From NCBI GenBank assembly GCA_002816705.1, contig MUCK01000026.1, forward strand, positions 1 through 63,711: 63,711 nt of DNA. The letters run 5' to 3'. Both the position numbers and the translations under genes were made by a program. Source of the DNA: SAR202 cluster bacterium Casp-Chloro-G4. GTDB lineage: Bacteria; Chloroflexota; Dehalococcoidia; Lucifugimonadales; JADFKI01. The notes beneath the pieces are model-generated. The model was not told the DNA's origin and ran no database searches. It saw only the letters and a list, made by a program, of their open reading frames with translations. Of the stretch, positions 9,823 through 11,948 are shown piece after piece. Numbering within the stretch: position 1 is the first letter of the stretch; the number at the start of each line of letters is the position of its first letter.

Positions 9823-10959
9823 CTATCCCGTATATAGCTCCGTATCCGGATTCCAGTCTGTCCAGGCGAACCAGAAGGACAGGTGAGATAACACCCGCTC
9901 CATAGTCTTCCCCCTAAGCTCCCCATCAATGGCCCTGCCCGTAAACGCCGACCACCTGGAGCCCGTCTCCTCGTCGACCAGAATCGTCTGTACCCCGGAG
10001 GGCTGACCTTCCAGTCGGAAGGTCAGCGTGCGCCCATCGACGTTGCGGTCGAACACCAGCGCTGTGTTGGTCGTGTTCTCAAAGTAGACCAGCACGTCCT
10101 CGCCGGAGTAGGTGTCGTTGACCACCTGCCGCTCAGCCAGCTCTTTGAACGGGTAAGCCTTTGGGTTGCCGCTCACGTCCACGCCTACAACCAGTTCTTT
10201 GGACCGCAGCCGGTCATCGCCGTTGGTCTCTCCGATGACGCCCGCCCTACCATCTCGGTAATAGCTCTCGTAGGTATCACTGGAGTAGCGGTCAGACTTG
10301 TCAAGGGCCAGCGTGTCGGGATGGAGCTCCGTCCACGCAGCCCAGGTCGTCTGTGTTACTGGTATGACCTCGAGTTCTGTGCCTGCAAGTGCGCCTTTTA
10401 TTCCCCGTCGGTTAAACTGGCTCCACAGGGTATCCGTCTGGTGATCGTACATGACCAGGGCGTTCATTATCAGTTTTCCCGAGACGCCAAAGGTATGAAT
10501 CTCCCCGTTGATCTCCCGGCCATACACGATGGCCGAAAAACATAGCGGTCACCACGTTACTGCGACAGGAACCCCACCAACTACGTCGTTCACAATCTCG
10601 TGGCGGCTAAGCATGGGAATCGAGTAGGCGCGATTCTCCCCGTTTATGGATAGCCCCAGCACCTGCTCATTAGGTTGAAACTGGGTTTGGGCCTGCTTTG
10701 CGTCCAGGAACTGCGGGTCCAGAATGGCAGGAATGGCGTCGTAGCCTAGCAACGTGACTATTTCCAGTTCCTGTCCTGCCAAGGTGTCTTGCCCTGACGT
10801 GCTTGGCGAAAAGTTACCGGCAGACGCTGTGCCGGAGTTTGCCGGTACGACCACGGTTTCGGAATTGGACAGCATCCGCGTGAAGGTCTGCCTCACGCCA
10901 GGCACAAATACGAACACAGCTATTACGCCCACCAGCAGTACAACGATTGTCTTCCCCAC
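9823..10959 (-). CDS. DUF3179 protein with in-frame UGA, candidate selenoprotein
   Basis: One continuous frame of 378 codons interrupted only by UGA at 10549-10551. The upstream part has an N-terminal membrane anchor (KTIVVLLVGVIAVFVFV) and ends in 'GGVPVAVTW'. After the UGA the same frame continues 'PLCFSAIVYGREINGE'. DUF3179 proteins carry a conserved VTYCPLC motif at this place, so the UGA replaces the first cysteine and yields UPLC, a redox-type UxxC motif. The rest is full DUF3179, including 'DHQTDTLWSQ', 'TTWAAWTELHPDT' and a second diverged copy (ALVFDRNVDGR ... SRWSAF). A hairpin 8 bases after the UGA resembles a bacterial SECIS. The GTG start at 10959 follows AGAGGG; TTG at 10980 is an alternative, which makes the Sec residue 137 or 144. 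The alternatives are a nonsense mutation or a read error, with two separate ORFs (10549-10980 and 9823-10527). The family's biochemical function is unknown; the anchored protein should face outward. Confidence 0.75.
10512..10540 (-). promoter_or_regulatory. Candidate bacterial SECIS hairpin after the in-frame UGA
   Basis: Read on the minus strand, eight bases after the UGA a stem begins. The core is CGGCCAT (10535-10529) pairing perfectly with ATGGCCG (10523-10517) around the five-base loop CGTGT (10528-10524). Five further pairs, T-rich with G-T wobbles, extend it to 12 bp (10540-10536 with 10516-10512). The loop starts 20 bases after the UGA and has G at its second position. Both fit the published general rules for bacterial SECIS elements (loop about 16-37 nt downstream, G among the first two loop bases). 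Recoding was not tested. Confidence 0.6.
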
Positions 10960-11148
10960 AGCAGACTTCCCTCTTTCCAAACTGCGATACGCGGCCCACG
11001 AAATCTCCCGGCGCGTTGCAGTTTGGATGCGCGCGCCGGGCGAGAGGTGCGGGCTGGCCGTCGAGGCCGATATTGGGATGGCGAGGCTTATTCAATGGCA
11101 GCGGGAGTGTGTGGCCGATACAAGGGTTGGAAGGTATGCTGACGTTTC

Positions 11149-11240: not shown

Positions 11241-11948
11241 CTAGACCAGCAACCTATCCGAAAAACCCCAGCGACCCTGGTGCGCGGCCGACAGGAATTG
11301 GAAGCGGTCCCTAAACTCTTGGGACTGGATCTCGTCCGTAGTCATGATGAGAGCGTCTTCGCGATTATCGGTGTAGTAGGCCTTGCGTACGCCTCGTTCG
11401 GTGAAACCGTACTTTTTATACAGGTTCTGAGCGACGTCATTGGAGGCCCGCACCTCTAAAGTCACGACAGCTGACCCGCGATTTGTGGCCTGCTCGATTC
11501 CGCCAATTAGCAGCAGTTCGCCTATGCCATTCCCTCGGTGTTCCGTGCGCACGCCCACAGAGACTATGTGCGCCTCGTCCACCATGTACCACGTGCCCAG
11601 GAAACCCGCGACGTACTGCTCACCCTGCACCCAGGTTGTGTTTCGCTTAGCCAAAAAACCTCGGGCGTTGTCCAACAGCCGGCTGATGGACAGGGGAGAG
11701 CCGGGAGGAGCTTCGACGTCTCCCGCGGCGCTAGTGACCCGGTTTGATGGGTTTAGATCATCTCGGCGCCACGCCACCAGGTATTGGGCCATGCGATTGC
11801 GCAACTCTCTCCGGAAGGGCGTTGGCGGGAACAGTGTCGGGAAGGCGTCCCGCTCAATCTCAGCGGCCTGCGTGGTGTCTATTTCTTCCAGCGGACGTAG
11901 CGCAAAAGGCATGATCTTGCCATGGGGAATCTCTCCGATTGCGCTCAT
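11241..11948 (-). CDS. rimI: GNAT-family N-acetyltransferase, RimI-like
   Basis: A 235-residue GNAT acetyltransferase resembling ribosomal-protein-S18-alanine N-acetyltransferase, which acetylates an N-terminus using acetyl-CoA. The acetyl-CoA loop is clear (VRTEHRGNGIGELLL), followed by 'VTLEVRASNDVAQNLYKKYGF', which is the typical RimI end of the fold, and 'GFLGTWYMVDEAHIVSVGV' ahead of it. The protein is about 80 residues longer than RimI of E. coli. The extra length is an N-terminal and central insertion around residues 75-105 rich in Ser/Gly/Pro and a C-terminal tail. A start at the ATG at 11912 is also possible. It stands alone here, not beside tsaB/tsaD as often seen, so the S18 target is inferred only from the fold. 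Confidence 0.75.
   Translation of the reverse strand: MSAIGEIPHGKIMPFALRPLEEIDTTQAAEIERDAFPTLFPPTPFRRELRNRMAQYLVAWRRDDLNPSNRVTSAAGDVEAPPGSPLSISRLLDNARGFLAKRNTTWVQGEQYVAGFLGTWYMVDEAHIVSVGVRTEHRGNGIGELLLIGGIEQATNRGSAVVTLEVRASNDVAQNLYKKYGFTERGVRKAYYTDNREDALIMTTDEIQSQEFRDRFQFLSAAHQGRWGFSDRLLV

Follow-up and report, generated by a model that had tools for sequence, protein, structure and literature searches.

A DUF3179 gene with an in-frame UGA from a SAR202 cluster bacterium is a new member of a predicted selenoprotein family

DUF3179 (PF11376), with the motif UxxC/T, is listed among the predicted selenoprotein families (PMC9312934, Table 1; PMC13188914). As credited in these two sources, the DUF3179 selenoprotein goes back to Zhang & Gladyshev 2007 and was found in an Olavius algarvensis symbiont. 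The initial annotation of the locus described here knew of no acceptance of this family as selenoproteins, and in view of these listings the novelty that it implied was wrong. The gene lies on a 63,711-nucleotide stretch of SAR202 cluster bacterium Casp-Chloro-G4 (contig MUCK01000026.1, referred to as the window) and is a well-supported new member of this already known predicted family. It shares its Pfam family and a Sec that opens the UxxC motif with the published DUF3179 selenoproteins, but the window member and its clade come from Chloroflexota. Further additions with respect to the published selenoprotein are relatives from Poribacteria, Acidobacteriota and other groups, a UxxA variant, and the UTLC and UIKC clades. 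Cys-type DUF3179 proteins (CPLC), including a second copy in the window's genome (C1:2514-3452), belong to the same family but carry Cys at the Sec column; their genes have no in-frame TGA and, as a group, lack the fixed-position hairpin described below. The thioredoxin-, DsbG- and Prx-like UxxC selenoproteins (PMC9312934) likewise combine U-x-x-C with the existence of Cys homologues, whereas the DUF3179 protein has no thioredoxin-fold match. A literature search, with most subscription journals outside its coverage, returned nothing relevant on Sec in SAR202 or Chloroflexota or on a selenoprotein combined with Rieske, and did not turn up DUF3179 in connection with a spread in Chloroflexota, a UxxA form or a Rieske-like fold. 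The breadth of Sec-containing DUF3179, the UxxA variant and the predicted tandem Rieske-like fold, which lacks cluster ligands, are possibly unreported.

The minus-strand frame from 10980 to 9823 encodes 385 residues, and its sole interruption before the closing TAG is a TGA at codon 144. This TGA (10549-10551) is preceded by GGVPVAVTW and followed by PLCFSAIVYG in the same frame, in agreement with the initial annotation, which had described the frame as open save for this codon. The part upstream of the TGA matches positions 2-64 of the PF11376 profile (72 bits) and the downstream part matches positions 66-292 (205 bits), such that the TGA corresponds to position 65 and takes the place of exactly one family residue. 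With the TGA read as a residue, the score reaches 295 bits over profile positions 2-292 (curated cut-off 27). Two starts were considered (Table 1). The GTG at 10959 is more likely than the TTG at 10980, because the ribosome-binding-like sequence AGAGGGAAG is located just 5' of it and the N-termini of relatives appear to start at about the same place. Apart from the Sec, the protein contains only one Cys. In comparison with a same-genus relative, the segment 3' of the TGA gave dN 0.11 and dS 1.19, indicating purifying selection.

Table 1. Features of the DUF3179 locus (window coordinates; fold and membrane assignments are predictions)
Feature	Position	Strand	Details
DUF3179 selenoprotein gene	9823..10959	-	GTG start 10959 likely; 378 aa; Sec137, Cys140; PF11376 on both sides of the TGA
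Alternative TTG start	10980	-	385 aa; UGA residue would be Sec144
In-frame TGA, read as Sec	10549..10551	-	Opening residue of the U-P-L-C motif
SECIS-type hairpin	10511..10541	-	13-bp stem, core CGGCCAT/ATGGCCG; pentaloop CGTGT at 10524-10528; loop from +20 nt
N-terminal hydrophobic helix, predicted membrane anchor or signal	10906..10965	-	Hydropathy 3.1; helix 6-25 in model
Domain 1, predicted Rieske-like fold, bears Sec and Cys	10261..10779	-	AlphaFold2 pLDDT 95.6
Domain 2, internal repeat of domain 1, lacking the U/C pair	9826..10218	-	Profile comparison
Stop codon TAG of DUF3179 gene	9823-9825	-	
GNAT acetyltransferase gene, neighbour	11241..11948	-	Homologue near window-type DUF3179 in 9/15 loci, several families

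The initial annotation had further claimed that the UGA replaces a family Cys, and had proposed that homologues be aligned at this column and close relatives scanned for TGA. Both comparisons bore the claim out. Exchange between U and C among homologues was found in exactly the UGA column, and all 20 sequences of the VTWUPLC subfamily from the window's genome and its relatives have TGA there. A chance open frame is excluded by this identical placement together with the purifying selection after the TGA. Within the order, 48 genes have U at the column and most others have Cys; the paralogue clades UTLC, UIKC and UPLCN carry U, and CPLC carries Cys. A set of 140 homologues from many phyla contained 79 U and 61 Cys forms (77 UxxC, 2 UxxA, and 61 CxxC). 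A tree of these sequences, which was built with U masked and does not separate gains from losses, requires 9 U/C changes, and well-supported branches make at least 7 of them necessary. Among named genomes, a broader scan found U-form genes in records labelled Chloroflexota, Poribacteria, Acidobacteriota, Tectomicrobia, Nitrospinota, Methylomirabilota, Bacillota, and SAR324, and on the complete chromosome of Sulfidibacter corallicola. One bin labelled 'Actinomycetes' (L166) has a UTLC-type DUF3179 on a short branch inside Chloroflexota sequences, and this bin may therefore be mixed or misnamed. Two loci (L114 and L160) have UPLA in place of UPLC, one in a Bacillota bin and one on the complete Sulfidibacter corallicola chromosome; in both, the second Cys is lost while the Sec and the hairpin are retained.

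Bacterial SECIS elements have an apical loop about 16-37 nt past the UGA, with a G in the loop. The window hairpin, which is directly 3' of the UGA, has its loop CGTGT at +20 and folds with -20.4 kcal/mol (z -2.32). Of 48 U genes, 38 form the complete set of five core pairs at the fixed position, and none of 21 Cys genes does so; in most of the other U genes this site carries a stem with a shifted register or a wider loop. Six of seven pairs at the fixed position have changed on both sides, and the covariation score of 0.416 exceeds those of shuffles (0.118) and of slid pairings (at most 0.096). RNAalifold predicted the five core pairs identically. Measured against synonymous recoding, the apical stem had a mean z of 2.46 for the U genes, compared to 0.42 for the Cys genes, and total folding energy alone gave a weaker signal than the stem at its fixed place. 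We also used an independent set that had no part in defining the hairpin and that spans several phyla, including the complete Sulfidibacter corallicola chromosome. In this set all five pairs were present in 26 of 32 U genes and in 0 of 43 Cys genes, a difference whose p of 1e-12 overstates independence because the sequences are related, whereas the covariation does not rest on a p-value. At least four pairs were found in 30 of the 32 U genes. A scan of the window for other frames with a TGA followed by a hairpin yielded one weak, unsupported candidate besides the DUF3179 gene (1336, plus strand).

A search for the Sec machinery, another check proposed with the initial annotation, recovered every component from the window's genome (1.36 Mb, 66.7% complete). 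The tRNA-Sec is at C21:48580 (63.4 bits) and was called SeC with anticodon tca by ARAGORN. SelA is at C21:29650 (E 2.7e-136), SelB at C29:11336 (334 bits together with its neighbour), and SelD at C21:6723-7646 (L049:1501-2424; E 1.4e-115). The active-site motif of SelD, SCAGUASK, is itself encoded with an in-frame TGA, and the SelD gene is therefore likely to be a second selenoprotein gene in this genome. Among 60 relatives, 52 encode a full SelA (E < 1e-100). The remaining eight include three bins that are 74-83% complete and have a TGA-form DUF3179 (G033, G041 and G047), and four genomes at least 89% complete for which no TGA-type DUF3179 is listed. In the wider set, SelA was present in 14 of 15 genomes reached via U-side loci, which are outside the set of relatives, versus 9 of 15 reached via Cys loci. 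The absence of SelA beside TGA-form genes is most simply accounted for by incompleteness. As a terminator, TGA is rare in the window, closing 2 of 43 long frames compared to 25 for TAG and 16 for TAA.

With a probability of about 0.9, the UGA of the DUF3179 gene is explained by Sec insertion, and redox chemistry would be the likeliest, although unproven, use of the residue. In this mechanism, for which the comparative sequence evidence is strong and our confidence very high, SelB carrying Sec-tRNA(Sec) would recognise the hairpin whose loop starts 20 nt 3' of the UGA, and Sec would be placed at codon 137 (144 with the TTG start). Stopping at the UGA would cost most of the DUF3179 domain. A premature stop, which would leave a pseudogene or a gene for a short N-terminal protein, agrees with the meaning of TGA in table 11 and with mechanical ORF calling, which splits the gene at this codon. 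Such a stop is nevertheless highly improbable given the strong purifying selection 3' of the TGA (dN 0.11, dS 1.19), the conservation of the TGA over an order and several phyla, and the covarying hairpin behind it. More remote still is that TGA has been reassigned in the lineage, for instance to Trp or Cys. The small share of long frames in the window that end at TGA (2 of 43) would fit such a change, but the residue that is swapped is Cys while a Trp encoded by TGG immediately precedes it, and the genome has the complete Sec machinery, with a SECIS-type hairpin after the UGA. Moreover, the DUF3179 gene of a same-genus relative (L012) itself terminates at TGA, as do many other U-type genes, which makes a global reassignment in the group very unlikely. 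That the TGA was made by an assembly or sequencing error might be suspected of a window taken from an incomplete bin (66.7%). However, the codon recurs in independent assemblies of other species; since it is kept both in close relatives and on a complete chromosome of a named species, that of Sulfidibacter corallicola, an error is vanishingly improbable.

The AlphaFold2 model of the product has a pLDDT of 92.4 overall and 95.6 for domain 1 alone. Its two halves are an internal repeat (profile comparison E 1.7e-32, 31% identity), of which only the first has the U/C pair. Among the VIA-align matches listed, which comprised Rieske ferredoxins, Rieske proteins, Rieske oxygenases, and NirD, those of domain 1 were all Rieske-type or NirD with Z up to 7.4 and those of domain 2 were likewise all Rieske-type or NirD with a best Z of 8.2 (a Rieske ferredoxin); values of 7-8 are near the level reached by models without a clear match and may reflect a common arrangement only. 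Given these Z values and the lack of any Foldseek match with E below 0.001, the Rieske-like fold is suggestive. No solved structure matched the protein in a sequence search of the PDB, no NCBIfam model matched it, and the gene was not listed in a Pfam Rieske search. Profile comparison with the Rieske proteins of relatives gave E 0.17 for domain 1, which is not significant, and a weak E 0.003 with a probability of 10% for domain 2. In its predicted fold each DUF3179 half may resemble Rieske ferredoxins and NirD, but it has no significant sequence match to them and lacks the C-x-H ... C-x-x-H ligands of the [2Fe-2S] cluster. Judging from the model, the product probably consists of two tandem Rieske-like beta domains without these ligands. 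By a linear offset of residue ranges, the invariant D179 (TTG numbering) would lie close to the second Rieske loop, whereas neither residue of the U/C pair would coincide with a ligand. Three genomes of the order (G010, G013, and G014) have 37-59 Rieske-domain matches each, versus 1-5 in most others.

The sequence of the N-terminal helix suggests that it would anchor the product in, or export it through, the cytoplasmic membrane. Taken together with the fold evidence, this helix leads us to propose, at about even odds, that the DUF3179 protein is an extracytoplasmic selenol/thiol oxidoreductase. The U-x-x-C of domain 1 would act as a selenol/thiol redox pair in which the selenolate would attack an oxidised substrate to give a selenenyl intermediate, which Cys140 would resolve as a selenenyl-sulfide, a scheme to which we give an equal chance of being right or wrong. 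Consistent with a redox role, every U is at a column that is Cys in homologues, and almost all U forms are UxxC (77 UxxC, 2 UxxA). A redox cycle that strictly needs both residues does not hold for all members, since two lineages have Ala in place of the second Cys and some published proteins have Thr. Sec is also known to bind metal, as in NiFeSe hydrogenase and formate dehydrogenase. A selenoprotein in which U137 and C140 bind metal instead of forming a selenenyl-sulfide would suit the predicted Rieske-like fold, and the invariant N131, D132, and D179 and the near-invariant E128 (TTG-start numbering) could take part. We consider metal binding unlikely, though not negligibly so, as the second Cys can be replaced by Ala or Thr, the U/C pair is off the Rieske ligand positions by the rough residue offset, and the CxH..CxxH ligands are missing. 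More tentatively than the redox proposal, and on balance with some doubt, DUF3179 might be an extracytoplasmic family with two Rieske-like domains that lost the Fe-S cluster and gained a Cys/Sec motif. This would be a fold so far not known to use Sec, present in Chloroflexota and several other phyla, with repeated switching between Sec and Cys.

Because ordinary gene calling splits Sec-containing DUF3179 proteins in two, their genes are probably mis-annotated in many genomes of Chloroflexota, Poribacteria, and Acidobacteriota, and the conserved hairpin together with the motif provides a simple rule for correcting split annotations. The presence of Sec and Cys copies within one genome and the predicted tandem Rieske-like fold offer a handle on DUF3179 function. 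Neither the GNAT neighbours (9/15 loci) nor the aminotransferase-like ones (3/12) pointed to a convincing function or substrate. The latter, class-V aminotransferase / SelA-like PLP genes, adjoin the UTLC-type DUF3179 paralogue of some relatives (L216, L219, and L220).
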